A DNA stretch of 64,000 nucleotides from positions 2,884,501-2,948,500 of the forward strand of contig NZ_CP073078.1 in assembly GCF_018135625.1 (NCBI RefSeq), written 5' to 3'. A model generated the notes under the pieces. The model saw only the letters and a program-made list of their open reading frames with translations, had not been told where the DNA came from and ran no database searches. Shown piece after piece: positions 40,281 to 64,000 of this stretch. Each line of letters opens with the position of its first letter. Position 1 is the stretch's first letter. The stretch comes from Phenylobacterium montanum. GTDB taxonomy: Bacteria > Pseudomonadota > Alphaproteobacteria > Caulobacterales > Caulobacteraceae. The position numbers and the translations under genes are program-made.

Positions 40281-40474
40281 AAGCGTCGCCCATCCCTTCT
40301 CCTCCCCTGTTTCGCGAAGCGACCCGGGGGAGGGGGGCCGCCGCACTATCAGCGCGGTGGTGGAGGGGGCGAACCGGCCGCCCAATGCTCGCGCCTTCCG
40401 TTGACGAACCCCGCGCCATGGCTAGAGTGCGCGCCTTCCGCTTCGGGGACCGGCCCAGCCGCCTCCCGCTCGGA
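40281..40474. other. Chromosomal spacer with GC-rich inverted repeat
   Basis: A CTCCCC/GGGGAG-type imperfect hairpin lies at about 40300-40340, followed by a purine-rich GGTGGTGGAGGGGG stretch. This looks like a dispersed intergenic repeat of high-GC alphaproteobacteria and may end transcription of the small gene. No ORF is supported. Confidence 0.35.
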
Positions 40475-40512
40475 GCCCCAGTGGCGAAATGGTAGACGCG
40501 GCAGACTCAAAA
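40475..40512 (+). pseudogene. 5' half of a tRNA-Leu(CAA), cut at the anticodon loop
   Basis: The bases from GCCCCAG (acceptor arm) through the D arm (GCGAAATGGTAGACGC) to the anticodon stem GCAGA and loop CTCAAAA are a normal tRNA-Leu start with anticodon CAA. The next base should open the 3' stem (TCTGC), but the sequence changes to unrelated AT-rich DNA at 40513. The 3' half, which should end CTGGGGC, is not found in the next few hundred bases. The cut sits exactly at the end of the 7-base loop, a classic tyrosine-recombinase crossover place, so this is probably one end (attL or attR) of the island. Confidence 0.75.
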
Positions 40513-40529
40513 AGGGTTGTGTCGACCAT

Positions 40530-40544
40530 GCGACATATTGTCGC
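40530..40544. other. 15-bp perfect dyad next to the tRNA junction
   Basis: GCGACA and TGTCGC flank TAT, 18 bp inside the junction at 40512. The position suits a recombination accessory site for integrase or the excisionase-like protein. Function is inferred from position only. Confidence 0.3.
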
Positions 40545-40620
40545 GAAAGCTGGAAAAAAGTGTTTGATTTTATAGGGTTGCAAAAGTAGGAAATTGACCG
40601 TCGAACCGGCCTGAAAACGC

Positions 40621-40641
40621 TCCAGGTGCATTCCAGGTGCA
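40621..40641. repeat. Two 10-bp direct repeats one helical turn apart
   Basis: TCCAGGTGCA occurs at 40621-40630 and 40632-40641. The 11-bp period and the place between the tRNA junction and the second tRNA suggest arm-type binding sites of the recombinase. This is an observation without experimental support. Confidence 0.35.
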
Positions 40642-40671
40642 GTCCGGGAGAGAAGGATCGGCGGCGATAGC

Positions 40672-40756
40672 GCGGGCGTGGCGGAATTGGCAGACGCGCC
40701 GGACTCAAAATCCGGTTCCGAGAGGAGTGTCGGTTCGACCCCGACCGCCCGCACCA
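40672..40756 (+). tRNA. tRNA-Leu (anticodon CAA)
   Basis: An 85-nt complete tRNA. The acceptor GCGGGCG (40672) pairs with CGCCCGC (40746-40752), followed by discriminator A and an encoded CCA (40754-40756). The D arm, the anticodon stem CCGGA/TCCGG with loop CTCAAAA, a long class II variable arm and the T arm with GTTCGAC are all present. It reads the TTG codon. Its body differs from the split tRNA-Leu 160 bp upstream, although both have anticodon CAA. Confidence 0.93.
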
Positions 40757-40919: not shown

Positions 40920-41447
40920 CTAGCGCCTCGGTCGCCTCTTCGGGGCAGGCGCTTCAGCCGGTGGCGCGGCGTCTCTTGGCCGGGATGCGAGCAACTCGTC
41001 GATCTCGGACCTTAGGAATAGCGCGCGCTTTCCGATCTTCACGGTTCGCAACTGGCCATCCTTGGCCATCTTCCAAAGCGTGCTTCGGCTGAGGCCGATC
41101 AGGCTTGCGGCTTCGGCGATGCTCATGGCCAGTTTCTCGGGTCGCTTGATCCGCTCCTGAACGCGCAGAATGAGGCGCTCAAGGGCCTCTTCGTCCAGGC
41201 CGCCGGACTGCGGCTGCGCGAGCGGCGGCGCCTGAACCTTGAGCGGCAGGCCGGAGACCAGCCGGTCCAGGTCGCGTCGACGCCAACGATGAAGGTCGAG
41301 CCCCAGATCGACCGGATGAATGCCAGCCGCCGCGGTTACGACGCCCAGGCTATTTTCATCGAGTGACAGGTAGCGCGCCGCCATTTCCGCCGACATCAGC
41401 GCGGGCCAGTCCGGCAGAAGCGTTCCGTTCCATTTTTCAACGGCCAT
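40920..41447 (-). CDS. Excisionase-like helix-turn-helix protein
   Basis: A 175-aa protein. Residues about 107-155 form an AlpA/excisionase-type winged helix (MSIAEAASLIGLSRSTLWKMA, then VKIGKRALFLRSEIDELL). The N-terminal part contains a second helix-turn-helix-like stretch (MSAEMAARYLSL). The C-terminus is a Pro/Arg-rich tail. It is next to and downstream of the integrase on the same strand, 80 bp away, which suits a recombination directionality factor or an element regulator. Confidence 0.72.
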   Translation of the reverse strand: MAVEKWNGTLLPDWPALMSAEMAARYLSLDENSLGVVTAAAGIHPVDLGLDLHRWRRRDLDRLVSGLPLKVQAPPLAQPQSGGLDEEALERLILRVQERIKRPEKLAMSIAEAASLIGLSRSTLWKMAKDGQLRTVKIGKRALFLRSEIDELLASRPRDAAPPAEAPAPKRRPRR

Positions 41448-41527: not shown

Positions 41528-43534
41528 TCAGGCGGCTTCCCAAACCTTGTTGAGGACCTGGGCGGCCAGGGCGGCCTTGTCCTGCGGCAGGAAGCGGCCG
41601 TAGTGGTTGGCCACGGTTTCAGGTGTGTCCTGGATCGCGTAGCTGGCCTGCTCATAGGAGCCGGTCTGCTTGAGGATGTGGGTGGCCAGCACGTCGCGCA
41701 CATTGTGCGGGCCATGCGGTAGGAGGCCCTTGATCACGCCCCGGCCCGTGAAGGGATTGAAGATCCCGTAGCGTTGGATGATCAGCCGCCAGGCCTCGTA
41801 GAAGGTGTGCTGGTCGAAGGCCGCGTTGCGACTGGTCGTCTTCGCCGTCTTGATGAAGAACGTGCCAGGGTCGGCGGCGCCATTGAGGAGCCTACCCCGG
41901 TGGACCTTCAGATAGGCCTCTATCTCGGCATAGAGGCCGGCGAGGTCTGGAAGCACGACCCTGAACGGCCTGCCGCTGAAATAGGATGACCCCGCATTTT
42001 TGAAGGCGGAGGCGGGGATGAGAACCTCCCAGCCAAGGTCACGCTCGCTCCAGCGCAGCTCACCGCGGCGCAGCGTCTCCAAGGTTCGCTCCGGCGTCGG
42101 CGCGCGACCGCGCGGGCAGACCAGGAGCTGGCGAAGGTTTTTCTGGCGAAGGCCGAGATGGAGGCCAAGACGGATGATCAGGAACGACCGTGTAGCCTCG
42201 GCGGCGTCGCGTGGGTAGCGCCGGGCGTCGGGCCGGCGCCGCAGGACCTCGTCGGCGATCTTGCGGTACTCCCCGACGGGGCTGTCGGCCTCGAGGATCG
42301 GCAGGATCGGCTCGAACGGATCGCGGTGAACGCGCGCCACCCGTTCGATTTCCTTGGCCCGTGTCAGGACGTGACGGTGCAACCGCTCGCACGTGGCGTC
42401 CCAATCGGATTGGGCGTCGTGGATCTCTCTGGCGCTCAGGAGTCCCGGGACCGCCTGAAGGCGGCGGGCCAGATCCGGCCGTTGCCGCAGCCAGCCGGTC
42501 TCTTTCCGGGTCATGGCCGCCCCAATGAGCAGCTGGTCGACTTCCCAGGACGTATAGAATCCACGCCTCTGTTCCCGCCACTGCACGTACCAGTCCCAGA
42601 CCTGCGGAAAGACCAGGAGAGCGAAACAGAGCCGAGGAGTGGGCACCCCCCTCCCCTTCACGGCCGAATTCGGCGATGCGGTCAGAGCGCCAAATAGAAG
42701 GCCCAGGTGTTCGACCTTCTGGGCGGCCGTCTCGCTCCCCCAGACGCCCTGCCGCTGAAAGCCGATGTCGGTCAGGGTGCTGGTCTTGAAGCGGAGGAGT
42801 TCACTCATCTCCTGGTCAAGGCGCGCTGGCGCGGGGACCGCGCCATAGCGCCAATCCAGGTCAACATCTGAGAGTTCCGAAGGGTCGCTGTCCTCTCCGT
42901 CCAGGCCAGCTGTCGACTGGCGGGCCGTGGCGGCCGTCCCTGAGAATCTGAGGCCGAAGCGCTGCTTGACGGCGCTGGCGTGATAGCGGCGATACTCAGT
43001 CGTCCCCGAGATGATGTTCGTTCGCACCCAATCCAGGATTTTATCGCGTTCGGCTCGCGGGCGCTTGTTGAAATCATCCGGCAGATGCCAGGCTAGACGC
43101 CTGCTCTCCGCAGCTTCGACGCCTGGAAGATTGTATCCTACCGCGGCCCGCGCCGGGTGGGGCTGCTTCGCCTGAAAGTAGCCCGGCGGCAGTCGGTATC
43201 GTCGCTCGATCGCCTTGAGGATGGACAAGCTTTCAAGGGATCGCGGCGCCTTCGTGCCGGAACGCCAGGTCTTCAGCGACGAAAGCTCCAGGGCGAAGCC
43301 CTGGCTGACCAGCGTCTTGTGCAATCGATATGTCGTGTCGGCATGCCGGCGCATGTGCAGGTCCAGCGCGTCGGCGAGACCCTTTGGATCTTCCCAAACC
43401 TCCCAGAGCGCTTCCGGAAATTCGACAATCGGGTCCGGCTTGCGTCCCCGGTGGTTCATGCGCCCCTTCTGGCTGGCGCGCTTTTGGGAATGGCGATCTG
43501 AACCGGTTGCGGCCGGCTTGGACTTCGAAGGCAT
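41528..43534 (-). CDS. Tyrosine-type site-specific recombinase (integrase)
   Basis: A long integrase of 668 aa. The catalytic residues of the tyrosine recombinase fold can be traced: the first Arg region is LHLGLRQKNLRQL near residue 450-460, then H610-x-x-R613 in HNVRDVLATH, and the nucleophile Tyr645 in NHYGRFLP. The N-terminal about 110 residues contain a helix-turn-helix-like region (SLKTWRSGTKAPRS) followed by YRLPPGYFQ, which is not part of the standard integrase and explains the length. ATG 43534 has a weak ribosome site. With the excisionase-like gene and the split tRNA it forms the integration module of the island. Confidence 0.85.
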   Translation of the reverse strand: MPSKSKPAATGSDRHSQKRASQKGRMNHRGRKPDPIVEFPEALWEVWEDPKGLADALDLHMRRHADTTYRLHKTLVSQGFALELSSLKTWRSGTKAPRSLESLSILKAIERRYRLPPGYFQAKQPHPARAAVGYNLPGVEAAESRRLAWHLPDDFNKRPRAERDKILDWVRTNIISGTTEYRRYHASAVKQRFGLRFSGTAATARQSTAGLDGEDSDPSELSDVDLDWRYGAVPAPARLDQEMSELLRFKTSTLTDIGFQRQGVWGSETAAQKVEHLGLLFGALTASPNSAVKGRGVPTPRLCFALLVFPQVWDWYVQWREQRRGFYTSWEVDQLLIGAAMTRKETGWLRQRPDLARRLQAVPGLLSAREIHDAQSDWDATCERLHRHVLTRAKEIERVARVHRDPFEPILPILEADSPVGEYRKIADEVLRRRPDARRYPRDAAEATRSFLIIRLGLHLGLRQKNLRQLLVCPRGRAPTPERTLETLRRGELRWSERDLGWEVLIPASAFKNAGSSYFSGRPFRVVLPDLAGLYAEIEAYLKVHRGRLLNGAADPGTFFIKTAKTTSRNAAFDQHTFYEAWRLIIQRYGIFNPFTGRGVIKGLLPHGPHNVRDVLATHILKQTGSYEQASYAIQDTPETVANHYGRFLPQDKAALAAQVLNKVWEAA

Positions 43535-46352: not shown

Positions 46353-48899
46353 TTAGGCACTTCCGAGCCGCCGAGGCGGCGGCTGGAGGAGCGGCCGAAA
46401 GCGGAACGCAAAGCCGGTGGCGTTCAACCGGCTAATGATTTCGATCGCCTCGTCCGCAGGCCTCCCGTAGTGGCCGGTCAGGACCTCGAAAATCGCCGCG
46501 TGCTCATTGCGTAAGCTGGTCGCGAAGATGCCGGTATCATCGCTGCCGACACAAACCGCTGGTCGGTTCGACAGGTCGCTGGTTGCAATTCCGAGCCACC
46601 GAAACAAATGATGGTCCGCCAAGCCTCGGTATGCGGCGATACGCACGTTACTAGTAGGCAGTGTCTCAATGACCACACCGGCGCCGTTAGTGTCGCCGAG
46701 CACGAGGTCTTGCATGGCGGTCAGGTCCCGCTCGTCCAACTCTGTAGTCTTCACCTCAACGAGTTGGTCCGCTACCACTTGCTCGCGATGGCGCTGGCGA
46801 AAAAGGCGAAAAGCGAGCGGGTGCTCGCGGCCGGCTCGAGCTAACCGGCGAAGCTCGTCCTGCCGGCTGGGACTCGCGATGGCCTCGGCTCGGAAATTCG
46901 CCGCGGCCGCCGTCGCCATCGCATCCCCAGGCTCGAGGTCGCAGATGCGCTCGAGTTCCAGGAGTTCGAGGATGTCCAGACCGCGTAGGCGCCACGCCTC
47001 GTGGAGGAGATGGGGGCCGTGCTCTTCGCCAAGGATTTCGGCCGAGCGACGGGCGATGACGTCGCGCAGATTACTGAGCGCTCGCTCATGTCCGCGGCGC
47101 TGAGAGAGGAGCGCATGTGCGAACGTAGCGTTGTCGAGATGCTCACCGCGCGAGATGACCAACCGCTCGCCGGTGCGGCCAAGCCAGAGCGCTGGCGCGA
47201 TACCCAAGGCTGTCGCGTGTCCCAATCGGTCGCCTGACCCCAGGCCGAGATAGGCGAGCGCCTCAGCCGAAGCACGAATCCCGGAGACCAAATGGATGAA
47301 ATCCTCGCCTACATGGTATGTCGCGTGCAGGTCGCGGTCGCGTCGCAGACGCCGGAAGATGGGCCCAAAGACTTCAGGGGACGCGTGCAGCTCATTGGCA
47401 GCTGCGTCGATGCCGCGCAGGATTTGCGCAGCAAAGGGATGGCGCTGGCGCAGCGCGTGGACGACGTCCGCCTGGCGCGCAAGGTCTGCCCTGAGGGGCC
47501 CGTCGCGGCACTCAGGAATCCGGCCCGATGGCGGAGCCAGCTTGCGCTTGATGAAGTGCACCACCAGCGATAGCTCTGAATTATCGCGGCCGGTGGATGG
47601 CCCTCCAGCGCAGCCCTCGCCACAAAATTGACCGGTCATGCAGCGCGGTGCCGCACCTCGTAGGCCCCGCGCTTCGCTAAGCCTTGGACACCCGCGAAAC
47701 CGGAGCCAGCCCTGCGAGATCGAGTCTACCAGTTTGGCCAATTCCTCTACCGAGTTCTTGGGCGCAAGCCGGCCTTCAAGGTGCGTCAAGACTCGGTGTG
47801 GCGGGCCTATGTTGAGCTGGCTGAAGCGCTTCTCGTAGGCGCGCTCGAGCCGCTCCCGCACCCCGATAACAGTGTATTTCTGAAACTGGTCGAAGCCGAC
47901 CTCGTCGACCTGCTGCATTGAAATGCGGCCCACAAGCGTTTGCACTAGCAGATTGAAGTAAAGTCCGAGACCCATGACCTCCTGCAGCGGCCCTGGCTGG
48001 GAGGCCGCCGAGAGGCAGGCGAGGAGAAAGGCGCCTTCATCAATCAAGGCGGTGCTTGTGCCCGCCCAAATGGCGGTGACAGGTGGGTCTGACGCCGGGG
48101 CTATCGGTTCAAAATCAGCTTCTCGATCGTCGAGCTCGACGTTCATCAGCGTCAATAAGCGCGACATATTGAGGGGCGCTTGACCGCGGTCCTGCGGCTG
48201 CCGGAACGCCTCGGCCATCGCGTGCCGCACGCGCCGAGCAGCGCGCAGGCGCCGGAATATTTCGTACGGGGTGAGACCCAGTTCGATCTGATCGTAGAGC
48301 TGGCTCGTCAGGCCGTGCGCCCTAATCTGCGCCGCCATCAGCTCATCATGGTACTCCCTTGGATAGCGCACCGCGTCCGCCCAGAGGATGTCAGCCTCGG
48401 TCGCCCCATTGAGATGCATGTGCATTTCATTGAGCCCATCCCGCTCGATCAGCGTGGCCAGAAGGGGATTGCTCGGCGAGAGCAGCGCAGTGTCTCCAAG
48501 ATCATCCGTAAGGCGAGTTCGGGGGTCGTCGTCGCCCGCTATCCGGCCTTCCGCCACGAGAAAGGCCACGATGACGGCAATGGGGGAAATCATTGGTAGC
48601 GCTTCCCGCCAATCCTCGAACGTCCCAGCCCGGATGCATAGCTTACCATTCCGGCGCTCGATGAACCGCTCCGCAAGCGCGCTTAAGACGCGCCAGGGCA
48701 ACGCTGCGACGCTGCTCAGCCGACCCAGTCTGACTTCAAGATAGTTCTTGTAGAAGTGATCCGGCCGATCCACAGCTGACCGCCGCTCGGTGATGAAAAT
48801 GCGGCGTTTTACACTCTCTAGGTCAGGGACCTCGCCGCCCGCGAATGTCCGGAGCCCGAACGTGTCGGTGAACGCTCGGCGATAGATCAGGGCGCTCAT
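46353..48899 (-). CDS. rdrB: RADAR adenosine deaminase RdrB
   Basis: An 848-aa divergent adenosine deaminase, the effector of the RADAR antiphage system. The metal and catalytic residues of the ADA fold are in order: H160 and H162 in EMHMHLNG, H529 and the proton-relay E532 in HVGEDF, H561 in RLGHATALGI, LPTSN at about 747-751, and D787/D788 in VGSDDTGIFATSLRNEH. Between the first and second motifs lies an insertion of more than 350 residues including a Cys-rich stretch (410-430), which is also seen as a long insertion in RdrB. In characterised RADAR systems RdrB deaminates adenosine or ATP to inosine forms with RdrA during phage attack. It starts 21 bp after the rdrA stop. Confidence 0.85.
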   Translation of the reverse strand: MSALIYRRAFTDTFGLRTFAGGEVPDLESVKRRIFITERRSAVDRPDHFYKNYLEVRLGRLSSVAALPWRVLSALAERFIERRNGKLCIRAGTFEDWREALPMISPIAVIVAFLVAEGRIAGDDDPRTRLTDDLGDTALLSPSNPLLATLIERDGLNEMHMHLNGATEADILWADAVRYPREYHDELMAAQIRAHGLTSQLYDQIELGLTPYEIFRRLRAARRVRHAMAEAFRQPQDRGQAPLNMSRLLTLMNVELDDREADFEPIAPASDPPVTAIWAGTSTALIDEGAFLLACLSAASQPGPLQEVMGLGLYFNLLVQTLVGRISMQQVDEVGFDQFQKYTVIGVRERLERAYEKRFSQLNIGPPHRVLTHLEGRLAPKNSVEELAKLVDSISQGWLRFRGCPRLSEARGLRGAAPRCMTGQFCGEGCAGGPSTGRDNSELSLVVHFIKRKLAPPSGRIPECRDGPLRADLARQADVVHALRQRHPFAAQILRGIDAAANELHASPEVFGPIFRRLRRDRDLHATYHVGEDFIHLVSGIRASAEALAYLGLGSGDRLGHATALGIAPALWLGRTGERLVISRGEHLDNATFAHALLSQRRGHERALSNLRDVIARRSAEILGEEHGPHLLHEAWRLRGLDILELLELERICDLEPGDAMATAAAANFRAEAIASPSRQDELRRLARAGREHPLAFRLFRQRHREQVVADQLVEVKTTELDERDLTAMQDLVLGDTNGAGVVIETLPTSNVRIAAYRGLADHHLFRWLGIATSDLSNRPAVCVGSDDTGIFATSLRNEHAAIFEVLTGHYGRPADEAIEIISRLNATGFAFRFRPLLQPPPRRLGSA

Positions 48900-48920
48900 G
48901 ATGATCTGCCCGCCACGGAA

Positions 48921-51900
48921 TCAGGGCGATCCGTCTTCACTGTCAGCCTCGTCCGCTGCGGGACCGGGCCGCCGGCGAATTTTTGGTTTCTGCTGGTCCA
49001 TGAAAGATTTCAGTCGCCCTCCGGCCCGACCATTGATATCCCCACCTCCCTGCAGCTGCACGGTGTTGAGTGGGAAGAATAGACCTTCAAATTTCGCAGT
49101 CGACTCCGATGGCTTTGGTGATCCCATTAGCACTTTCGCGAATTCGATATCAGATTCCAAATACTGCCCGACTCGCATGGAGTAGTGTTGGAATATACTG
49201 TCATTCGGTTCACCTCGGCGCGGCTTATCCACTTCCTCCTCTTCATTACGAGCGAGGAAGTAGGCCCAGATAGGGCAGGAAAAGATCGCGTCAAAAAAGT
49301 CAAATTCCGGCGTCGCCTGGAAGGTTCGGTCGTCCGAATCGTAGATTTCCGAGAGGAGCCGGACGAACACCTCGCCGGACCGGACTGGATTGTTTGCCAG
49401 GCTCCGCCCCGGCGCAAAGTTGGCTGCCCTCAGCGCCTCGAAACCAACTGCATGCAGAAAGGCGATAATGGTGCGGTGAAAAAACACGCCGAGGTAGCGG
49501 CTCTGGCCATGCACGAGCTCATCGCGCATATTGCCGAACGCGTACGTGAATCGGGTCCACATCCGCGAGAGCGTTATCGGCGCGAGCGCCACATTCTTCA
49601 ATGAATGCGCGTCCAGCCACGCAACGATTAGATCCTCAAGCTCATCTCCCACCGAAGGGGCGAATTGGCCTGGTCCGGAATCGCTTTCGAGCTCCTCGTC
49701 CGGCTCATAGTCCGCAGCGGCCTGCCGCCGCTCGGCCTCGACTGCGCTGGGAGTGGGATAGCTGCGCGCCTGGCTAAGGGCCGTAATGGTCTGAGCCACC
49801 CGCTGACGGCGCTCTGCGGCGTCCGTGACGGATGTTGCGTCCAACAGCTCGGCGATGACTCCGAGCAGCCTTAGGAACGAGTAATTGCCGTAATCCGCTT
49901 GCTGACTGCTGACGATCCGACTGGACGGCAGCAGGGCCACCAGTCGCGCGTTGCGGTCGAGCCTCTCGGCCAGATCCTCAATCCCGTTAGCGAAATAGAC
50001 CTGGAAGCCGGCCTCGGCACCGCGCCGAGAGTCGTAGGACCAACCTGCGCGGATCAGTGCAGAGTGATAGCCTCGGAGCGGGGGCGGCAGCGCCTGAAAG
50101 AGGCGTTTTTGATATGCTTCTTGCTTGTCCGCGACGTTGCGGAAGGCTTCGCGGTCCAGGGCTGCCCCTCGTCCCGGCGCATACTCGAGGCCGTAGAGCT
50201 CAATCGTGGCTGCTCGTGTCTCGCGGATTCTTGCGATCGGCACCGTGGCTCCGCTTAGTCGGGTGCTAGGCACGATGCGGCGTATACGATCGCGGCCACC
50301 TTCGGTCACCTCCCAGGCCGCCAACCGGCTCACGAATTGCGCTGCGTTTTCAACCGTGTTGGCATTGAGATGATCCATCAGGCGGGGGAGGCTTCCACCC
50401 CGCGCGCCATCATCGCCTACCTCGCCCCGGTCAATCTTCTCCCGCAGCGTCGCGATTTTCAGCCAGAACTCGAGCATCCGGCCCGGCGAGCGGCGGAAGA
50501 CTTCGGTCAGCACCGCGGCTAGATAGATGGCAACAAGATTCCGGTCCGGATCTGTCGTGTCTGGATGAAACCGCGCAAGATCCAGCCAGCGGTTAGATTG
50601 CGTTAGCCAGCGGGCGAGCAGCCCGAGAATAAGATCGGGCGAGGGGTCGCGCGTAGCGTCGATGTCTATCCCAAGCCCCATCAGTGAGGTCCAGGCGACG
50701 TGGCGGAAGGTGTCTACCGCCCGCCTCACGACGGAAGAGTCGGCGCTTGCGCCGCAGAGTTCGACCGCACCGGCCAAGGCCTGCAGGCTGCTCCTTGTGG
50801 GCAAGCTTAGGAGCTGCTGGCGAAAGAGAGCCACATCCGGTTTTGCGTTCAGACCCAGGAGGCGACCCGCCATTCGCTCGATAAACTCGCCCTCCGGCAT
50901 CGGCGCCGAAAGGCGATTGCTCTCGAGCTCGAGGCTCGCCTGGCGCACGTGATACTCAAGCGGACGTAGATCGATCCGGTTCTCCGGGGGGGCCACCTTA
51001 ACAAGATATTGATCTTGCAGGGCGTCCACCATGTGGCCAATCTTAGAGACCTGCGACATCCCGGCATCGACATTGCCCCGCGACTCCTCAGCCGTGATGA
51101 AATCCTTACCCATCTGTGCCCATTGCTGGCGACGGATCAGCAGAGAGTAGAGATTCAAGTCTCCGGATAGTATAATGCGCAACTGCGGCGTTGCCAGATA
51201 TTTGCGAAGCGCTTCTAGGACTGGCCATCCCTTCTCAAACCACGTATCGACGTCGTCAATGGCAAGAACGAACGCATCACACCCAACGTAATGGGCTGCC
51301 TTCGCGACGTAGTGCCGGAAGCTTCGCTCAAAATCATGAGCAGCCGAGGCATTCAACAGACCTTGATCCAGTATGAAATCGGGATCCAGCCATTCACGGC
51401 CCCCGTACAGAGAGTCGCCAATCCCATCGAGGAGGGAAAGGCCCTGCGCAAGTTTGCGCAAAGATTTCTTTACGGCCGCATACTCGTCGGCCAGGTTGCT
51501 ATAGTGCTTCCGCCGATGCTCCGTCGCAATCCGGATTCGGTCGATCACGACAATGACGATATTTTGTTTAGTCTCAATCAGAGTCGGATCGATGACGCCC
51601 AAACTGTAGAGGTTTTTGGCGGGGTTCGCCGCAGCGGGCGCGCTCTGGTCGAGTAGAATGCGATAGGTCCCATCCTGGATCGATTCCAGAACATTCGTCA
51701 GGAAGGTAGTCTTGCCTTCGCCGCGGCGTGCCGACACCAAGATCGCATCATGTCGGCGATCTTTGATAATATCGAGTTCCCGTGGACGGGCAGCATCGTC
51801 CTGACTCTCGGTCACCGGAGTGTCGAAGTTGACGAGAGCAGAAAAGACCCGCTGGCGGGCCTCATGCTGGATGAACCCCTCGCCGCGCGGCGCAATAGCC

Positions 51901-51950
51901 GGGTTGCCGATCTGGTCGAGGTTTATCCGGATTGATCTCGTTGAATTCAC
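48921..51950 (-). CDS. rdrA: RADAR ATPase RdrA
   Basis: A 1009-aa P-loop ATPase. The start is GTG 51950, directly after AGGGGGG with good spacing; the open frame up to 52403 looks non-coding. Walker A is ARRGEGKTT at about residues 74-82, Walker B is AFVLAIDDVD at about 226-235, and LSGD at about 261-264 sits where sensor 1 belongs. Large helical regions follow, which suit a STAND/AAA+-type oligomer. In RADAR, RdrA forms a ring that senses phage and feeds RdrB. Gene order rdrA then rdrB, spacing and the RdrB match make the assignment strong even though RdrA itself is weakly conserved. Confidence 0.8.
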   Translation of the reverse strand: MNSTRSIRINLDQIGNPAIAPRGEGFIQHEARQRVFSALVNFDTPVTESQDDAARPRELDIIKDRRHDAILVSARRGEGKTTFLTNVLESIQDGTYRILLDQSAPAAANPAKNLYSLGVIDPTLIETKQNIVIVVIDRIRIATEHRRKHYSNLADEYAAVKKSLRKLAQGLSLLDGIGDSLYGGREWLDPDFILDQGLLNASAAHDFERSFRHYVAKAAHYVGCDAFVLAIDDVDTWFEKGWPVLEALRKYLATPQLRIILSGDLNLYSLLIRRQQWAQMGKDFITAEESRGNVDAGMSQVSKIGHMVDALQDQYLVKVAPPENRIDLRPLEYHVRQASLELESNRLSAPMPEGEFIERMAGRLLGLNAKPDVALFRQQLLSLPTRSSLQALAGAVELCGASADSSVVRRAVDTFRHVAWTSLMGLGIDIDATRDPSPDLILGLLARWLTQSNRWLDLARFHPDTTDPDRNLVAIYLAAVLTEVFRRSPGRMLEFWLKIATLREKIDRGEVGDDGARGGSLPRLMDHLNANTVENAAQFVSRLAAWEVTEGGRDRIRRIVPSTRLSGATVPIARIRETRAATIELYGLEYAPGRGAALDREAFRNVADKQEAYQKRLFQALPPPLRGYHSALIRAGWSYDSRRGAEAGFQVYFANGIEDLAERLDRNARLVALLPSSRIVSSQQADYGNYSFLRLLGVIAELLDATSVTDAAERRQRVAQTITALSQARSYPTPSAVEAERRQAAADYEPDEELESDSGPGQFAPSVGDELEDLIVAWLDAHSLKNVALAPITLSRMWTRFTYAFGNMRDELVHGQSRYLGVFFHRTIIAFLHAVGFEALRAANFAPGRSLANNPVRSGEVFVRLLSEIYDSDDRTFQATPEFDFFDAIFSCPIWAYFLARNEEEEVDKPRRGEPNDSIFQHYSMRVGQYLESDIEFAKVLMGSPKPSESTAKFEGLFFPLNTVQLQGGGDINGRAGGRLKSFMDQQKPKIRRRPGPAADEADSEDGSP

Positions 51951-52492
51951 GCGCCCCCCTGGCTGCAGATTCTGCGGTTGTCCTGAAGAGTTGCGCACTC
52001 GATGGTGGATTTGGCAACTGCCTCCCACTCCGGATGGGACGGTCGGGTCAGCGATAGGGCAGTACTGGCACGGCTTAGCCGCTTTTGAGGGTCGCCAACG
52101 TGGCCCGCACGCGGACGTGTCCGAGCCCGGGCTGAGAGCCAATGAAAGTCGCTTGCTCTGACCGCCCTTCGGCCTGCTTAACTTTCGCTCAGGGATCTGG
52201 AGCGAGAGGGCCAGATCGAACTCTTCTCGCCGCACTGGCTCCAGTCCCGAGGCCATAAAGATGCGGCTCCGGTTCACTTGGCGCGGTTCCGCTCTGCCTG
52301 TTGAACGCCGCCTTGAAGTTCCCGACGGCCCTCCCCACTTCCCACTGGCTACGCATGGCGGCTTGACCGTCAGCCCCGGCGACGGGGTCCCGCGCTTCTC
52401 CACTGGGTGAAGTTAGCCGGCGTGCCCCGTGAAGGGGTGCGTCGGAATTGGCCGCCGCTCCACGGGCTCAGAAGCACAACGGAGCATCCATC
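51951..52492. other. Divergent regulatory region between rdrA and the 71-aa gene
   Basis: This 542-bp region should hold the RADAR promoter (minus strand) and the promoter of the small plus-strand gene. Long open frames across it are high-GC shadows. I found no clear operator or hairpin. Confidence 0.35.
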
Positions 52493-53020: not shown

Positions 53021-53932
53021 CTATGCGCCCGCCATCAGCGCAGCCAATTTGTCGGTGCAGACCACGTTGACTACGTCCTTCAGGGTCGACACCCGCTCCC
53101 CAAGCCAAGCCAACTCCTCAGGCGTGATCTTGTATTGCGGCGAGTAGCGGGCATCGACGTAGGCGCGTCGCAGTAGCTCGAAGCATCTCTGGTCGGAGCG
53201 GGTCGCGCGAGGCCACACTGTTGCCAATCGTGAATCCAGCTGCTCGGCTTGAGAGCGGAGGAAATTCAGCCTGTGCGACTTTGGGCTCCAGAGTGTCAGG
53301 GTCAGCAGGAGGCAATGGTAGAGGCGTTCAGCGGCTTGATGCAGGTCGAAGGCGGCTTTGTTCAGGTCGCCGTCGTTGAGGGCGTACTGATATCCGCGGT
53401 AGAAGCCGCCGACGCTCTGGAACCATTTGTCGAAATACCCCTGCGCCTCCTTCAGCGCCTCGGCCGGCTCCAGCGTCTTGGGCTGGTCAAACGGGAAACC
53501 CTCGGCCTCATAGAGCGCAACCCCATCGCGAACGATGTCGGTGAAAAAGTAGCGCCCCATTCGCAGACGCTGATTCACGTCATTGAGGTCATGGACGATG
53601 AAGTTCACCGGCGCCGTCAGCCGATGGCTGATCGCATATTCCCGAAGCAGATGATCGTCGGCCTTGGCCCAGGTCTCGATCGGGTCGGTGAGCTTGTCGC
53701 TGTTGACCACCACCAGGAGGTCGTAGTCGCTGACGTAGCCGCCTTTCGGGTCCTCGACCCAATCCCCACGGGCGTATGAGCCGAACAGGATGATCTTGAG
53801 GATACGGCCCTTGCGCTTGAACGGCTGGGTGCCGCCGGCGATGGCCTCCTCGAATTCGGCGAACAGGATCTCCACCACCCGCGACAGCTCGCGGCGTTTG
53901 GCTTCCGGCAGATGATCCAGCGAGGTCTTCAT
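53021..53932 (-). CDS. Nucleotidyltransferase-HEPN fusion protein
   Basis: A 303-aa protein. Residues about 40-130 form a minimal nucleotidyltransferase: GSYARGDW at 51-58 and the metal-binding SDYDLLVVV with D69 and D71. Residues about 160-290 form a HEPN domain (LHQAAERLYHCLLLTL, then YVDARYSPQY). The common HEPN RNase motif R-x4-6-H is not evident, so an RNase role is uncertain. In MNT-HEPN toxin-antitoxin pairs these are two separate proteins; here they are fused, as in some NTase-HEPN singletons. GGGA precedes ATG 53932; the extra upstream frame of 56 codons is not supported. Confidence 0.82.
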   Translation of the reverse strand: MKTSLDHLPEAKRRELSRVVEILFAEFEEAIAGGTQPFKRKGRILKIILFGSYARGDWVEDPKGGYVSDYDLLVVVNSDKLTDPIETWAKADDHLLREYAISHRLTAPVNFIVHDLNDVNQRLRMGRYFFTDIVRDGVALYEAEGFPFDQPKTLEPAEALKEAQGYFDKWFQSVGGFYRGYQYALNDGDLNKAAFDLHQAAERLYHCLLLTLTLWSPKSHRLNFLRSQAEQLDSRLATVWPRATRSDQRCFELLRRAYVDARYSPQYKITPEELAWLGERVSTLKDVVNVVCTDKLAALMAGA

Positions 53933-54145
53933 CACGTCCCTTGTGTCCCCTGATCCAGCCAGGGTTGCAAGCCGGCGCGCACGCCGTGCGCGCGAGGCCC
54001 GGCCTCGCGCCCATGCCGGCTTCATCGCCAGGCGGGGCTTGAGGCGGTCCAGGGTGGGCGCCAGCGGCGCCCATGGCCGAAGGCCACGGCGCAGCCGCAC
54101 AGCGGCGGAGTCGCCCTTGACGGCCTCAAGGCCCGTCTGGCCTCC

Positions 54146-56257
54146 TCAGAGGCTGAGGCCCAGGTCGCGCTTGCGTCCCAGCATCCAGTCGATCCCACCG
54201 CCCGGCAGGGCTATGCCGGAAACCTCGCGGCCCACGTGCGGCTCGAGGACGTGCCGCCAGGGAACGAGGCTGAAGCCGAGGCCGTCGTCGATCATGGCGA
54301 AGCGTCCGCTGGCGAGCTGAACCGAGCCGGTGAGCTTGCCGGTGACGGATTGGCCGGGAATGGAAGGGGACCAGCTGCGGCCCCGCTCTGCGGCGAGCGC
54401 CTTGCCGGCCTTGTCGATCTCGATCGCCTCCAGGCGCTGGATCAGATCCTTCGGCGCGCTCATCCGGCCGCCGCCGAGATCGCGGACGTGGCCGGCGTCG
54501 AGCAGGGTCCGTCGCCGCTGCTCCAGGGCGACCTGCACGTCGTGGCCGAAGCCCCGGTCGCTGAGCGGCGTCGGCCGGCCGGCGACAAGCTCCCGGTCCA
54601 GCCAAGTCGCGCCCTCATGGCGGACCTGCCGATCCAGCCCGAAGGGCGAGAGGATGCGCACGCGAAGGTCGGACGGGTCTCTGGCCTGGTCGTAGGCCTG
54701 GCCACGGGCCACGAGGTCGCGTGGAACCTCCCAGACCCCATCGTCCATGCGCAGCACGATGCCGGCCCGCCTCAGGGCCTCCAGCCTTCGGACATGGGAC
54801 TGAACGAAGGCTTCGGGATCGACGCCCCGGCTGACAAGATCTTCGCGCGCGAAGAGGAGGTGGTCATCGGTGCGATAGATGCCCTGGAGGCCGGCGATCT
54901 CAGCGATGTTGCGGTCTGACGGTCTCGGCCCCTCGGGGCCTGAGCCGGCGGCGATGACCATGCCCTTGGCGATCTCTTCGGCGCGGGCGGCGTCCAGCTC
55001 CAAGTGATGGATCTTGCCGTCCACCCCGTCGATCACAAGCCGCACCCGCTCGCCCAGCTCGTCGCTGGCCAGGCCCTTGTCCAGCACCCGCCCGGTGATC
55101 CGCTCCTCGGTCCTTTCCCGGTGAAGGACGTAGGACCCTGGCGCGCGCTCCTCGGCCAGGCCCGCCCGCTCCAGGGCCTTGTGCATGGTCTTGATGATGT
55201 CGCGCTGCTGGCCGAGGTCACGAAGCGTATCCTCGGCTTCGGGGAACACGATCCAGCGGCCGGGCTCAGCCTCGGCGGCGAGGCCCATCTGCTCAAGCAC
55301 CCTGGCCCGCTGAATCAGGAGGGCGCGGTTCTGGCGCAAGGTCTCCAGCATGTCCTTGTCGGGCCGAAGGTCGGCCCACTCGTCACTGGCCTGCTGCTCG
55401 GCGATCAGCATCCGGTCGAGCCGGGTGAAGCGCTCGGCCTCGACCTCTGGCTCCAGGCTCTTCGTCACCTCCTTCTCGGTCTGTCTTCCCAGCTCCAGGG
55501 TGACGATCTCGCTGGCCCGCTCCCTGATCCCGTGGGCGATGTAGTCGCCGGCGATGTTGAGGATCTTGCCGTCGTCGGTGATCCCTCTTACCAGCACGTG
55601 AGTATGGGGATGGCCGGTGTTGAAGTGATCGACCGCCACCCAATCGAGCTTGGTCCCGAGGTCGGCCTCCATCTGCCGCATCAAGGCCCTGGTGGTCTCC
55701 ATCGGGTCGGCCAGATCGGCGCCGTCCTCGGGCGAGACGATGAAGCGGAATTGATGCCGATCTTCCCGGCCGCGATCGAGGAACGCCTGGCCGTCCTCGA
55801 CGTCTCGCCCGGCGGAATAGAGCCGCCCCTTCTCTCCGTTTCGGTCGACCCCATCGCGCTCCAGATAGCGCAGGTGCGCAACGACCGCCTTAGCGCTGAC
55901 GAAGCCTCGTCCCCTCGCCGCCCCGCGCTGCGGGTTCAGCTTCACCACCCGGGCCTTGACCGCCACCCGCCGCGCGCGCGTGCGAACGCCGCTCGCCTCG
56001 CGGCGCCACGGGCTCCGGTCCTTCATCGCGGCGCTGATCGCAGCGCCCCGGCCACGGGCATTGAACCGGCCCTTGGCCTTCGCTCCCGGCGGACGGTTCG
56101 GATCGCCGCCGGCCCGGCGAATGGCCGCGTGAACTTGGCCGATGAAGGTCTGCGACCCGCGCTTCGACCGGCCGGCGCCGCGGCCTCTTCCCAGCCCGCC
56201 GCCGCAGTCCCTTACCTGGCCCAGGCGGATGCGGAAATCGTCGTCATCCTTGCTCAT
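54146..56257 (-). CDS. VirD2-type relaxase (DUF3363)
   Basis: A conjugative relaxase of 703 aa that nicks DNA at an origin of transfer. It starts MSKDDDDFRIRLGQ, the family's usual beginning, and the upstream frame to 56485 is not conserved in type. The HUH metal site is visible in VDHFNTGHPHTHVLVRG, and an earlier motif (AHLRYLERDG) carries candidate Tyr. The C-terminal half is the DUF3363 region. No mating-pair genes are seen in the window, so the element is mobilizable or the transfer genes lie further right. It shows the island can move by conjugation. Confidence 0.88.
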   Translation of the reverse strand: MSKDDDDFRIRLGQVRDCGGGLGRGRGAGRSKRGSQTFIGQVHAAIRRAGGDPNRPPGAKAKGRFNARGRGAAISAAMKDRSPWRREASGVRTRARRVAVKARVVKLNPQRGAARGRGFVSAKAVVAHLRYLERDGVDRNGEKGRLYSAGRDVEDGQAFLDRGREDRHQFRFIVSPEDGADLADPMETTRALMRQMEADLGTKLDWVAVDHFNTGHPHTHVLVRGITDDGKILNIAGDYIAHGIRERASEIVTLELGRQTEKEVTKSLEPEVEAERFTRLDRMLIAEQQASDEWADLRPDKDMLETLRQNRALLIQRARVLEQMGLAAEAEPGRWIVFPEAEDTLRDLGQQRDIIKTMHKALERAGLAEERAPGSYVLHRERTEERITGRVLDKGLASDELGERVRLVIDGVDGKIHHLELDAARAEEIAKGMVIAAGSGPEGPRPSDRNIAEIAGLQGIYRTDDHLLFAREDLVSRGVDPEAFVQSHVRRLEALRRAGIVLRMDDGVWEVPRDLVARGQAYDQARDPSDLRVRILSPFGLDRQVRHEGATWLDRELVAGRPTPLSDRGFGHDVQVALEQRRRTLLDAGHVRDLGGGRMSAPKDLIQRLEAIEIDKAGKALAAERGRSWSPSIPGQSVTGKLTGSVQLASGRFAMIDDGLGFSLVPWRHVLEPHVGREVSGIALPGGGIDWMLGRKRDLGLSL

Positions 56258-56525
56258 AGGGCCGACGTCGGGGCGGAAAATCGCGCCCGCAAGGCCGCAT
56301 CGGTCGCCGGCGAGCCCTGGCGCACGATCGCCTGTCAGGGCGTTGAGACGGCGAAATCGTCGGGCCAAGCACTGGCGCTTAGCGTCGGCCAGCGTATTGA
56401 AAACATAGAAGAAAGCCGCCCGGGCGGCGCGCCTTGCCTTCAAAGTAAAGCTTGCCCGAACTAGCCCAACCCATTGTGCAGACAAACAAAACCGGCCCGA
56501 CAGGGACCGAGCGGGGAAACCCGCT

Positions 56526-57401
56526 TTATCTTGCCGTCTGAGATATAGGCTGGATTCTTTGGTCGACTTCTCGCTTCAGGTATTGCTCGCGGTGGATCGC
56601 GAGGTACGCCCGGGTCTTGACGTTCAGATTTTTGATTGGTGGTAGGTCGTCCAAACCAAGTCTGCGCATGAGCTCCGAGGAGAGCATGGGCGATCGAAGG
56701 ATGGCCCCATCGTCATCGAAGGAGATCAGGCCACGATCGAACAGGCCATCGACATGAACCGCGAGAAGAAGTCCGTTATCCGGGTCGAGGCGCTCCTGGG
56801 GCGAGCTGTGTCTCCACGGCTTGATGTGGGATGCGCGCAATAGCTCGGGGAGCGCCAAGCCAGTCACAGCGCACTGGCGGTCCCATAGGTCCATCAGGTC
56901 CTGACGGAATTTGGATTGCCCAAGCCGGGCCGCCCGGACGGCTTCGGTCTCGGTGACAGGATCCGCCTCGTCGGCAGTTGGCTCTATGTTGACGCGCTCG
57001 ACGTGGTCGGTCGACGGGACGCCGAACGCCCAGACCACGCCCACGGGCGAGGTGTCCATGATGGTGAGCGGCGTGGCGAGGCCGCGATAGGTCCACGAAA
57101 GCCGCTCGTCCTCGCGGGTGAAAAGATGGATGGGGTACGCACCGCTTAAGAGTTCCTGGATCTGCCGGTCCCGCAGCTTGGTGTTGTTGCGAGCCTGCCA
57201 AACCAGCGTCTCGCCTTTCCAATGGTTGTCGTAGTTGTGACCGGTTCTCCCCGGGATGCCCACGCCAGCGAAGATGAAGAACTCCCCACGCCAACGTCGG
57301 TAGCCGGTGTCCCACGCGCCACCCTTTTGATTGGGATCTCCCACCAGGGCGCGGATCTCAGGGCGGGTGTAGCCTTCGCCCAGAGCAAACACGGTAGCCA
57401 T
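56526..57401 (-). CDS. HNH endonuclease with N-terminal DUF3427-like domain
   Basis: A 291-aa protein. The N-terminal half resembles DUF3427 (GEGYTRPEIRALVG, LVWQARNNTKLRD, PIHLFTREDE), a domain found on restriction-type and helicase proteins. The C-terminal half is an HNH nuclease: CAVTGL, ASHIKPW, DPDNGLLL and HVDGLFDRG. The frame opens with GTG 57413 overlapping the helicase stop by one base (TAGTG); ATG 57401 is preferred because GGGG lies seven bases before it. Coupling to the helicase suggests the nuclease is the effector of that system, cutting DNA recognised through the N-terminal domain. Confidence 0.78.
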   Translation of the reverse strand: MATVFALGEGYTRPEIRALVGDPNQKGGAWDTGYRRWRGEFFIFAGVGIPGRTGHNYDNHWKGETLVWQARNNTKLRDRQIQELLSGAYPIHLFTREDERLSWTYRGLATPLTIMDTSPVGVVWAFGVPSTDHVERVNIEPTADEADPVTETEAVRAARLGQSKFRQDLMDLWDRQCAVTGLALPELLRASHIKPWRHSSPQERLDPDNGLLLAVHVDGLFDRGLISFDDDGAILRSPMLSSELMRRLGLDDLPPIKNLNVKTRAYLAIHREQYLKREVDQRIQPISQTAR

Positions 57402-57412
57402 CGCCATCCCCA

Positions 57413-60400
57413 CTAGAACGATAGTCTCGAGATCGCGTGGAACGGTCTTCGCGCCAACTCAAAGCTGTCGATCAACCTCACCGGTCCGCGATGCTCGTTG
57501 TGCATCTGGGCGACAAGCGGCGAGATTGTCCCCTCGATCCGCCAGAGCGGGTGATGGATCGCGATCACCGCGTCGCCTCCTGTTCGCTTTAGACGAAGGG
57601 CCGGCAGGGGAGCGCCATTGATAACCTCAAGATCACCCGAACCCCGCGCGACCCGCGCCAAGGCGTCCTCGGCCATCAACCGCCAGTCCACCAGTTCGGG
57701 CGCGCTGAAATCGCCATTCGCGCCAGCGCTGTGCGTGGGATCAATCAGCGCCCGAGCGAACGAGAGACCGAGGCGCCAGTCCAGCAGGCCGTGGTAGCTT
57801 CGGTTTCCGTAGCGCTGCAGGCACTCGTAGCAGGCCTGGTCGCACGAGGCCCGGTGCGACGGCGTGGCGAACTCGCGGAGCGGCCAAGCAGCCCCATCTT
57901 CCACAATGCTCTTGAGCAAGTCGATCGCCCAGGGACGGTCGGGCGTCTGTGCCAAGCGACGTGATAGCCCGGATCCATTCACCAGCGTGTCAGCGATCTG
58001 CAGCATCGGACGCTTGACGCCATCCGGCTGATAGAGCCGCGGCGGCAGGATGTCGAACTCACCTGGATCAACATCCAGTTCCAGCGCCGCGCGGTCCACG
58101 AGGAGGAAACACGACGTCAATGCAGCAGCGCGAACCGACACACGCGCGTCGGAACCGGCGACCCGCGAGATGTCGAGGAGCGGGTTCATCGCACACGGCG
58201 CGAGGAACAAGCTGTCCGTGGTCTTGCGCGACGCCAGCCACCCCGAAAGCGGTCCGAGATCAGCAGTCCAGTCCGGGCTTCGCAAGGTGGATTGGTAATC
58301 GGATTCCAAGGCTTGGTTAGCGAAGGTCATCCACACGCCGCGTCGTGGCGCCGCGCGCTGTCGGCCTTGCTCGAAGCTGAACCCAGCCGATTGCATGGGA
58401 TCCGCGTCGTAGCCTGGATTGAGCCTGACGATGCGCGCGGTGCGCTCGAGGCTTATGGCGACATTGGTCCCTTGTGCCCGGGATGGCCGCACGTCGGTCG
58501 CTTCGGCACAAACAATACGGGACCGGATGATCCGAAGTTCTCCCTCGCCAGTTCGTTTCGGATCGAAGTCCGTTCGGTAGGCCGCTGGGGATAGGCAATG
58601 CTTAAAATCTCCGCCGGGTATCGCGGAACCGCACGCGGCGCATGAAACGTCTCCGGGTTGATCAACACGCGTCCAGCCGCCGCAGCCCCGACAAAGGGCC
58701 ATCCACCACTCGTCGTCCAACGGGGCTCGTTGATCCTGGCCGTGCATGATCCAGGCGCCGTGCTTCCGGGGCTTGGGCAGCGAGGGGGTCAGCCCAACGG
58801 CCGTGTGCACGCGCTTGTCGCGAACGAGGGAAGCACCGGGCGAGAATTCGTAGATCGCCAAGTCCGAGTCGCGATCGGTTGTATCCCAGTCAACGTCGTC
58901 AGGCCCGTTCGAGTGCAGGCCCAGATAGAGGGGGCGCACCCGGGTCGGCATCCCGTACATCGGAAGCAATCCGCCCTCGGCCAGGGCGTGCGCCACCCCG
59001 ATATCCCAGCGCCCTTCACGCGCGATGACGTCGGAGATCGCCGCCATCAGGATATCCACCTCCAACGCCGACCTGAGCTTGCTGGCGAGATCGGGCGCCA
59101 GGTCCGCCGCTAGCAAGGCGACCGCCGCCTCACGGGCCTTTAGCGTCGCCTCGAGGGCTTCCCTAAGCTCATCCCGCCAGGGAGAGTCTTCGTCCTTGTA
59201 GTCAGCGACGTAGACGAATTCACCGTGGATGTCGGGCGGAAGTACGTCATACCCGCGATAGGCGCCCTGGTGCTTCAGCCGGAGATACTTGAACGCCGCT
59301 TGCAGCCAAGCCTTCCGGACGACCCGCAAGGGAATGTCCTCGTAGCCCGCCGCAAGGAACGGTGGCGGCGGAGCATCGCCGGTGATCCGCTCGGGATGGC
59401 GGAAATAATGCAAGTCGTGGCTGCGGCTACGGCAAACCGTCACGACGACCGAAAACGCCTGGCCGCGCCGTCCCGCGCGCCCGACACGTTGCTGATAGTT
59501 GAACCGCTGGGGCGGCATATTCGCCTGATAGACGGCTTGAAGCGGCCCAATATCGATGCCGACCTCCATCGTTGTCGTCACGCTGAGGAGGTCGATTTCC
59601 TTGCCAAGCCTCGGAAGACGGGCGTCCTCACCTGCCCCGTCCTCCACCAGGATGCCACGGAACCGCCGAAGCCGTTCGGCGCCGTCACGGGTTTGGCCCG
59701 TGAGCTCCTCGCTTCGCAACCGGAACGGCTGCTCCGCCCCCGTCTCTGCACGATCGACCCGGTGGGCGAGGAAATTGTGCCGCCAAAGATCCTTCGCCAC
59801 ACCCGCGGTAGCGGCCGGGAGTGGATCGCCGCATCGGGTGCACACGTTCGCGCCCCTATGGAGGTGCGCGCGGTCGCAGCGAGCGCACCTCCAGAATGGT
59901 GTGTCGGCCTTGGCCAGCCTTACCCCAAGCGAGAATAGCCGGACGATGCCGCCAGTATGCCCAAGGTCGGCCTGGCGCAATCGATCCAACGCGTCGTTCA
60001 GATACTGATCGCCGTTGCCTGGGGACGCGGCCTCGCAGAAACGACGAACCCGGTTGTCGAGGGGCACGTCGGCCGCCGTCGTCCATTGCTTGATTTGCGT
60101 GAGGTCGACGTAACGCGAGCCGTCCACGCGGTAGGCGTCCGCCAGCACCCGAAGCAGGGCGTCGAGTTCATCGCGGTCCGCCGTGTAGTCCCCGCGCGTG
60201 AAGAAGGTGGGATAACCAAGTCCTGCTTCTTCGAACGAGAAATAGGTCTTATTGAAGAGCGTGTCGTGCAATGCTTCGCGCTGTTCCTCCGCGATCTCGC
60301 GTCGCTTGGCTTGGATCGCGTTGCCATCCAGCGTCGCGGATGGTCCGGTCCATTTGACAGCCTCGCCCTCGAGCTTGAACAGCCGCCACCAGATATCGTC

Positions 60401-63277: not shown

Positions 63278-64000
63278 CAAATTTCCCCAGCGGTTCCGTT
63301 GCGCAGACTATTGGCCGACTTCGCGAGAAGGGCGGCGAGCGATCCATCGGCCTTCGGCGACGCGCCGGTGCCCTTACAGTGCTGTAGGAAGTCCGAGAAA
63401 CCATCGGCCAGGGACTTGGCGTCATCCGGCTTGAATGTGATCGCGAGCGCGGCTTCGAAGGCTGCCAGCCGGGCGGGCCAGCTCGTGGACGATGCTGGTT
63501 CCGCGACAAGTCCCGGAGCGAGATCGAACGGCACGGCGGGTCGCTCCGGCGTGGCTCCTGTCGGATGACAGTCATCGAACAGGAGTGGGAAAAGCTCGCC
63601 GGCACGGAGGCGCGTGAGGTTCATCTGCGAGGGATCGGCTTCGATCACCGCCATGAACAGGAGATTGGACGGAAATCCGTAGCGTTGCGGGTTGCGCTGG
63701 CAGCGCGCGAGCTCCGGGAGCCAGAAGCCCGCCGCCGCAGGATCCAGGTCGTCCAGGATTACCACGACCGGCTCCGAGCGGGACCGCGCGCGAACGAACG
63801 CGTCATGCAGTGGAGCCTTCTCCCCTCTCTGCCCGGTCGGGGTTAGGTCGTTGACTGAGAGCAGAGTGGGATCGGTCATGATGGTCACGGGAGTCGCGCC
63901 ACCGACGACCGACAACCATGCCTCGGCGAACTCCCGGGCGAATGGGCCGATGAGCACTGGCAGTTCGCGGGCCCGGAGGGCGGCGTCGAGGACAAGGAGG
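63277..64000 (-). CDS. ATPase-like defence protein, C-terminal part (cut by window edge)
   Basis: The last 241 codons of a gene that continues beyond the right edge. It contains a Walker B-like strand VVVILDDLDPAAA and an earlier VLIGPFAREFAEAW, LL...TDPTLLSVNDL segment, which resemble the end of large AAA+-type proteins. No Walker A is in view. The stop codon overlaps the helicase ATG (TGATG), so the two are translated together. It might be a DruH-like or other partner of the helicase; that cannot be decided from this part. Confidence 0.6.
   Translation of the reverse strand, partial: LLVLDAALRARELPVLIGPFAREFAEAWLSVVGGATPVTIMTDPTLLSVNDLTPTGQRGEKAPLHDAFVRARSRSEPVVVILDDLDPAAAGFWLPELARCQRNPQRYGFPSNLLFMAVIEADPSQMNLTRLRAGELFPLLFDDCHPTGATPERPAVPFDLAPGLVAEPASSTSWPARLAAFEAALAITFKPDDAKSLADGFSDFLQHCKGTGASPKADGSLAALLAKSANSLRNGTAGEI

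Follow-up and report, generated by a model that had tools for sequence, protein, structure and literature searches.

Introduction

Islander-type islands enter tRNA genes by an anticodon-centred crossover, and the gene is rebuilt there from the part of the tRNA that lies in attP (PMC4383910, in the accessible part of that paper). The outcome is different in tRNA-dependent lysogeny, which has been demonstrated with experiments in the actinobacteriophages Fionnbharth, Gaia and others; according to the accessible portion of the report, Gaia targets tRNA-Leu-CAA through an 8-bp core (Guerrero-Bustamante and Hatfull, mBio 2024, PMC10865867). In Sinorhizobium meliloti, two prophages inactivate tRNA-Leu(UAG) and carry another tRNA-Leu(UAG) (PMC11476347), and prophages are also reported without a tRNA-replacement mode (PMC12429752), as far as the accessible sections of these two papers go. 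No published report of such an arrangement in conjugative, mobilisable or defence islands was found among the sources consulted, which include the accessible part of PMC9897764 and leave most subscription papers outside their scope.

This article describes a 32.3-kb defence island of Phenylobacterium montanum (Caulobacteraceae; assembly GCF_018135625.1, contig NZ_CP073078.1). Its left part lies in the window, that is, the whole stretch of 64,000 nucleotides that was analysed (positions 2,884,501 to 2,948,500, forward strand). The reading favored here, with a rough probability of 0.88, is that a tyrosine integrase recombined the attP of the island with the anticodon loop CTCAAAA of the only tRNA-Leu(CAA) gene of the host and so inserted the island, with a foreign replacement tRNA aboard.

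The locus shares several features with tRNA-dependent lysogeny: attB in a host tRNA gene, a short core, no rebuilt tRNA and a complete tRNA of the same isotype carried by the element. The actinobacteriophage systems are phages studied by experiment, whereas the elements scanned here carry conjugation, mobilisation or defence genes and are known from sequence alone; moreover, in one of the integrase families described below the replacement sits some 150 bp in from an end of the element, and the loop of the replacement is often changed. The S. meliloti prophages resemble the present case in that they occur in Alphaproteobacteria and replace a split tRNA-Leu by a foreign tRNA of the same anticodon, but they concern another isoacceptor, and the paper describes prophages rather than conjugative or mobilisable islands. 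An anticodon-loop crossover and a tyrosine integrase are shared with Islander-type islands; their attP, however, restores the tRNA and that of the present element does not. The split tRNA with a carried replacement is already known in phages, and what is new is its occurrence in conjugative or mobilisable islands, the use of one loop by two integrase lineages and a replacement that differs from the target arm.

Organization of the Island

The element measures 32.3 kb between its two core sites and its right part extends beyond the window. The features are listed below in window coordinates unless otherwise stated.

40401..40427, + strand: promoter-like TTGACG ... CTAGAG upstream of the split host tRNA gene (read from sequence)
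40475..40512, + strand: 5' half of the host tRNA-Leu(CAA), ending with the anticodon loop CTCAAAA (read from sequence)
40506..40512, + strand: left core CTCAAAA (attL); the right core, genome 2957295-2957301, would be at window position 72795
40513..40671, + strand: left arm, from core to replacement tRNA, 159 bp (146-159 bp in 5/5 elements of this integrase family)
40620..40641, + strand: two direct repeats CCAGGTGCA, putative arm-type integrase sites (by eye)
40672..40756, + strand: complete element-borne replacement tRNA-Leu(CAA) with encoded CCA (ARAGORN; Rfam 57.6 bits over 40672-40753)
40920..41447, - strand: HTH_17/excisionase-family DNA-binding protein (profile matches)
41528..43534, - strand: Int668, 668 aa, with a tyrosine-recombinase-like C-terminus (by eye) and no Pfam, NCBIfam or PHROG match
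44286-46157: 623-aa ORF in the lowest-GC stretch of the island (about 47-53%), with no Pfam or PADLOC match
46353..48899, - strand: RdrB-like adenosine deaminase (RADAR defence), cargo, below the NCBIfam curated cut-off
48921..52403, - strand: RdrA-like ATPase (RADAR defence), cargo, below the NCBIfam curated cut-off
53021..54100, - strand: nucleotidyltransferase and HEPN protein, cargo
54146..56485, - strand: RlxS/DUF3363-type relaxase (mobilisation), above the Pfam DUF3363 cut-off and below the NCBIfam RlxS cut-off
56526..57413, - strand: HNH endonuclease
57413..63280, - strand: DruE2-like helicase (Druantia defence), cargo
63277..63999, - strand: part of a DruG-like protein, which runs on beyond the window
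Genome 2955720-2957117, outside the window: Int465, P4-type integrase at the right end, start 178 bp from the right core

Beyond the window, the island also encodes Vsr, Eco29kI-type and C5-methyltransferase genes and a second HTH protein, followed by Int465, which shows Phage_integrase and Arm-DNA-bind_3 domains. In related elements, TAGGTGCA-like repeats are found near both ends (by eye). The RADAR-like and Druantia-like defence genes share one island (46353-63999), with the relaxase between them.

When 15 island proteins were compared with PHROGs (1e-6), a test for a temperate phage, only integrases, the excisionase, methyltransferases, an endonuclease and unknowns were matched, and no T4SS family occurs among the island proteins scanned. 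An integrase accompanied by a DUF3363/RlxS-type relaxase, with no full conjugation apparatus found, is the composition of an integrative mobilisable element, and this gene content describes an integrative, defence-carrying and probably mobilisable island.

The Split Host tRNA Gene

It had been noted from the window that a first tRNA-Leu(CAA) stops exactly at the last base of the loop CTCAAAA, and the observation of a split gene is confirmed. The 5' half occupies 40475-40512, where neither ARAGORN nor Rfam calls a tRNA, and is preceded by a motif that we take to resemble alphaproteobacterial promoters (40401..40427). Its GCCCCAG-type 5' end is present in a single exact copy in the genome searched (5.65 Mb, two contigs), with one extra match at two mismatches (GCCGCCG...); no unbroken CAA gene of this type was found elsewhere in the genome. 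The 3' half was located where the original prediction had proposed to look for it, at the right end of the island: the expected 3' end, CTGGGGCACC, occurs at 17 places in the genome, and one of the two same-strand places downstream of the window is the complete 3' half, with its core CTCAAAA at genome 2957295, at a core-to-core distance of 32,289 bp. The direct repeat comprises the 7-nt anticodon loop only, present at both junctions. Chance is not a candidate, since the right-hand 7-bp repeat runs into 46 bases that complete the tRNA.

Joining the island flanks by script gives a complete tRNA-Leu(CAA) according to ARAGORN, and neither junction alone yields a tRNA. The joined sequence is identical (84/84) to the intact tRNA gene of a genome of the same genus (G004, 80% complete) in which neither Int668 nor Int465 has a match at the thresholds used. 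Neither of the two findings named beforehand as refuting, the same truncation in island-free relatives or an unbroken GCCCCAG-type gene elsewhere, was obtained from G004 and the present genome. The left flank of the island aligns with G004 at 71.7% over 1421 bp, and on the right nothing matched beyond the tRNA half in the ~1.4-1.5 kb compared. The CAA pattern has one hit in G004 and one in each of the other three same-genus genomes, and a family-wide search for the exact left junction, one mismatch allowed, returned the own genome and one unrelated hit only.

Two readings had been offered for this arrangement. Entry of the island into the first tRNA at its anticodon loop, with a replacement carried along, accords with the 3' half at the other end of the island, with a join that reproduces the same-genus gene, and with an intact tRNA that sits between both cores and matches another genus. 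The second reading, in which the 3' end of the intact tRNA was the target and the first tRNA an old relic, finds no support, as both halves are undamaged and flank the island exactly.

The Probable Integrase of the Insertion

Two integrase-like genes, Int668 and Int465, lie within the island, and the P4-type Int465 at the right end is, by association, the likely integrase of the insertion. All six of the relatives found at 61-68% identity adjoin a bare CTCAAAA followed by a tRNA 3' half; no such half lies beside the integrase of L209 (58% identity). Plasmid integrases of several genera are about 59-60% identical to Int465 (best 20 of 120 records). Tn4371-type ICEs may be compared here; near the four plasmid-borne relatives opened (~60% identity; 4/120 records), however, no tRNA half or replacement tRNA was found, and T4SS genes were seen in only one of the elements described here (G475). 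Against 50,697 phage records (1e-10), Int465 gives five weak matches at 24-31% identity.

Int668 is the integrase-like protein nearest the replacement tRNA, and together with the excisionase-type HTH protein it sits closest to the left end; as composite islands seem to exist (e.g., G300), it might be thought to have made the insertion, with Int465 belonging to a second, fused element. We consider this improbable. Int668 was found in 50/299 family genomes, the present one counted, and at no fewer than 80 loci in public genomes whose titles point almost exclusively to Alphaproteobacteria. No tRNA-Leu half was found when the flanking text of 80 Int668 loci (up to 6 kb, in some cases shorter) was scanned, two flags proving by eye not to be tRNA. 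In a half-pattern scan of all loci, including the Int668 loci of the family, the own locus alone was flagged among Int668 loci. In L076, an intact tRNA-Leu(CAA) adjoins another integrase-like gene (by eye), and the 3' half stands beside every Int465 relative of at least 61% identity. In L076 (3721-5190, Rhodopseudomonas rhenobacensis), the order is the intact tRNA, directly the other integrase-like gene, then the Int668 relative.

Related Elements

Elements with Int465-like integrases (family I). Int465 matches 11/299 family genomes (own included) at E <= 1e-60; three non-self matches, all in genus g3, are 63-68% identical and the remaining ones 33-37%. Genus g3 is Brevundimonas, as two other g3 genomes have loci identical to records bearing that genus name. 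Among 385 genomes sampled across the class, one non-self match at E <= 1e-90 was found (G475, 62%, family f38), and IMG/VR contains three (58-65%). The left ends in G246, G162, G300 and G475 consist of a 5' half ending in CTCAAAA, 146-157 bp and a complete tRNA-Leu(CAA); in G300 the 5' half and the left arm are separated by another element. In G475 both element ends are on one 4.9-Mb contig, 92.3 kb apart, and in G246, G162 and G300 they are on different contigs. The joined flanks give a complete tRNA in 5/5 cases (own included). G475 encodes VirD4-, TrbL-, TrbI- and CagX-type proteins as well as DUF3363 proteins, as would an integrative conjugative element.

Elements with a second type of integrase (family II). 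In nine genomes (G208, G010, G217, G138, G205, G235, G301, G056 and G091), a 5' half ending in CTCAAAA is not continued by a 3' half, and 1.1 to 13.8 kb inward stands a complete tRNA-Leu(CAA) (on the opposite strand in G056). The separated 3' half was located in 8/9 genomes (not in G056), on the same contig in G010 (111 kb), G138 (39.5 kb), G205 (138 kb) and G301 (46 kb); ARAGORN calls a tRNA in 8/8 joins, that of G091 being damaged. The integrase adjoins the 5' half. With the G138 integrase as the sole query, matches of 54-74% in the best segments were obtained in G301, G235, G208, G205, G010, G217, G105, G056 and the second element of G300; the G091 integrase is similar by eye and broken. 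Int465 has no match to the G138 integrase at 1e-3. The integrases of G138, G301 and the second G300 element match a PHROG integrase family, and for that of G138 nothing in 50,697 phage records matched at 1e-10. G138 and G301 encode MobA/MobL relaxases and VirD4-type coupling proteins.

Both integrase families apparently lie in tandem in one split tRNA-Leu in G300, with two complete tRNA-Leu(CAA) genes, if the adjacency of its contigs (L204, L205) is assumed. In the viral contig L286, a 5' half reaching through the anticodon stem stands before a relative of the family II integrase, and a complete tRNA-Leu(CAA) comes after this integrase. Three plasmids (L287, L288 and L290; three of four opened, 15 records) have 3' halves of other tRNAs upstream of a family II-type integrase (by eye), which suggests that the canonical restoring mode occurs within the same family of integrases.

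Frequency and scope. The split gene with a replacement was found in at least 13 of 299 sampled family genomes, an even draw from a larger group, and in one genome outside the family (G475). The survey pattern (CAA 5' halves, one mismatch allowed) matched 281/299 family genomes. Those followed were all genomes with at least two hits except G087, and in addition G105, 47 in all, G162, G246 and G300 having been treated earlier. The figure of 13 is a lower bound, as only part of the pattern matches was listed, regions were read for 12 of the 47 genomes and pairs on different contigs (e.g., G024, G070, G085, G153, G201, G310) stand outside the count. A 3'-half search over 15 genomes gave a match in 12, those of G201 and G310 not being used. 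G175 and G105 were excluded from the counts: no 3' half was matched in the G175 genome, and in G105 a 5' half is present and no replacement was found with the survey pattern. G307, considered as a split case, was rejected because both of its CAA genes, separated by 1.3 kb, are intact.

In the 6 elements with both ends on a single contig, 32 to 138 kb separate the two halves. The stems of the split genes differ between hosts (GCAGA, CCGGA, CTGGA, GTCGA) and the loop is identical. Pfam scans of three related elements (G475, G138 and G301; minimum ORF length 150 or 200 aa; G301 up to position 375,000 of 382,275) show no phage structural family among the families listed (25 of 41, 25 of 26 and 22 of 22), and all four elements scanned for content carry conjugation, mobilisation or defence genes.

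Two further arrangements were seen. G175 (L265) has, on one strand and 3.2 kb from each other, two tRNA-Leu(CAA) 5' halves that both run into similar non-tRNA sequence, and G085 (L185) has a tRNA-Leu(CAA)-like sequence devoid of its first bases, possibly a displaced part of another type of insertion.

The Replacement tRNA

The second tRNA had been noted to share the anticodon and loop of the first and to differ in body, and it does so; it lies at 40672-40756, 159 bp past the loop. A count of the CAA genes of the genome had also been proposed. Among 42 Rfam tRNA matches, all ten of >=82 bases were read and five are tRNA-Leu, one each with the anticodons CAA, TAA, TAG, CAG and GAG. As there is one gene per anticodon, the intact tRNA is the only CAA tRNA-Leu found in the genome.

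The REPLACEMENTS of the island is identical over 85/85 positions to a gene of G078, which belongs to another genus (g21), and that of G217 is identical to genes of genus g15. This foreign identity bears on the idea that the host formerly had two tandem tRNA-Leu(CAA) genes, that the island struck one and that the intact copy is host DNA. The closeness of both tRNAs on the same strand, and the pair of intact genes in G307, would fit; this history is nevertheless very improbable, because the intact tRNA is enclosed by the two cores, G004 (80% complete) has a single CAA-pattern hit, the exact match is to another genus, and a tRNA at this place within the left end is seen again in elements of other genera and of the other integrase family.

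Still less credible is a canonical island that restores its target with a carried 3' half, the truncated piece being a displaced fragment. This is the usual arrangement (Islander, PMC4383910, in its accessible part) and the integrases here are of the same broad class; however, the two junctions already contradict it: past the 5' half on the left, the sequence rebuilds neither stem nor T arm nor acceptor, and the 3' half that belongs to it stands on the right. Besides, the intact tRNA differs in body, no tRNA fragment restoring the target was found in the island, and in all 14 elements tabulated the 5' half is followed by non-tRNA sequence. That the undamaged halves are transcribed separately and joined in trans, leaving the intact tRNA as a spare, is hardly conceivable with the halves 32 to 138 kb apart; split tRNAs occur in some archaea, and we know of no bacterial precedent.

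The 17-nt anticodon arms of the replacement and of the split host gene differ in 14/14 elements (the host arm of G056 being known only in its 5' part); a random draw from 33 distinct native sequences, relatedness ignored, gives a rough probability of 0.018 for this result. The loop of the replacement is TTCAAAA, not CTCAAAA, in 10/14 elements; the own island and G162 keep CTCAAAA, so the core is not changed in every case. Without the core, the replacement, and the element itself, would be shielded from the integrase. Among 56 native loci compared, meaning genes not known as replacements and with the G007 gene counted twice, TTCAAAA occurs in 12/13 loci of genus g15 and in 0/43 elsewhere, and about nine g3 genomes have it as their sole hit among the matches listed. 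TTCAAAA by itself is thus no mark of a replacement, and with such a native loop genus g15 may be naturally resistant to these integrases. A claim on promoters of the replacements was dropped: a simple promoter expression hits 10/56 native loci and 0/15 replacements, and is thus uninformative.

Proposed Mechanism and Significance

The genomes themselves establish the cut at the loop, the 7-bp core at both junctions, the lack of restoration, the foreign complete tRNA inside and the recurrence of this arrangement. In the mechanism proposed, Int465 would recombine the attP of the element with the 7-bp loop CTCAAAA of the host tRNA-Leu(CAA), and the island tRNA would be expressed and charged and take over UUG decoding from the split gene. 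If excised precisely, the island would take the replacement with it and leave the host gene restored, and loss of the island by any other route would deprive the cell of its CAA tRNA; the replacement presumably works, and the host would then depend on the island. tRNA-Leu(TAA) may read UUG by wobble, and since this tRNA is present the CAA tRNA may not be strictly essential. Carriage of a whole tRNA would widen the host range, as only the loop, and not the stems, must match; the differing stems of the split genes are in line with this. The mechanism is further supported by an unrelated integrase family that produces the same outcome in nine genomes, and by the experimental precedent in phages.

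A wider proposal is put forward tentatively, with somewhat less than an even chance of holding. In Caulobacteraceae and another alphaproteobacterial family, conjugative or mobilisable islands with unrelated integrases would have converged on the tRNA-Leu(CAA) loop, each with a whole replacement tRNA that frees it from stem matching and opens hosts of different genera or families. The arm of the replacement would have been selected to differ (often by C32U) against recutting, and the cell would be dependent unless excision is precise, a form of tRNA-based addiction.

A principle demonstrated in phages is hereby extended to conjugative and mobilisable islands, and the split gene with a replacement is not rare in one bacterial family (at least 13/299 genomes). 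The locus marks a class of islands that finders built on a rebuilt tRNA plus its own fragment should miss. It suggests a way for islands to use one tRNA across hosts whose tRNA stems differ, and a route for the horizontal replacement of a basic translation gene across genera.
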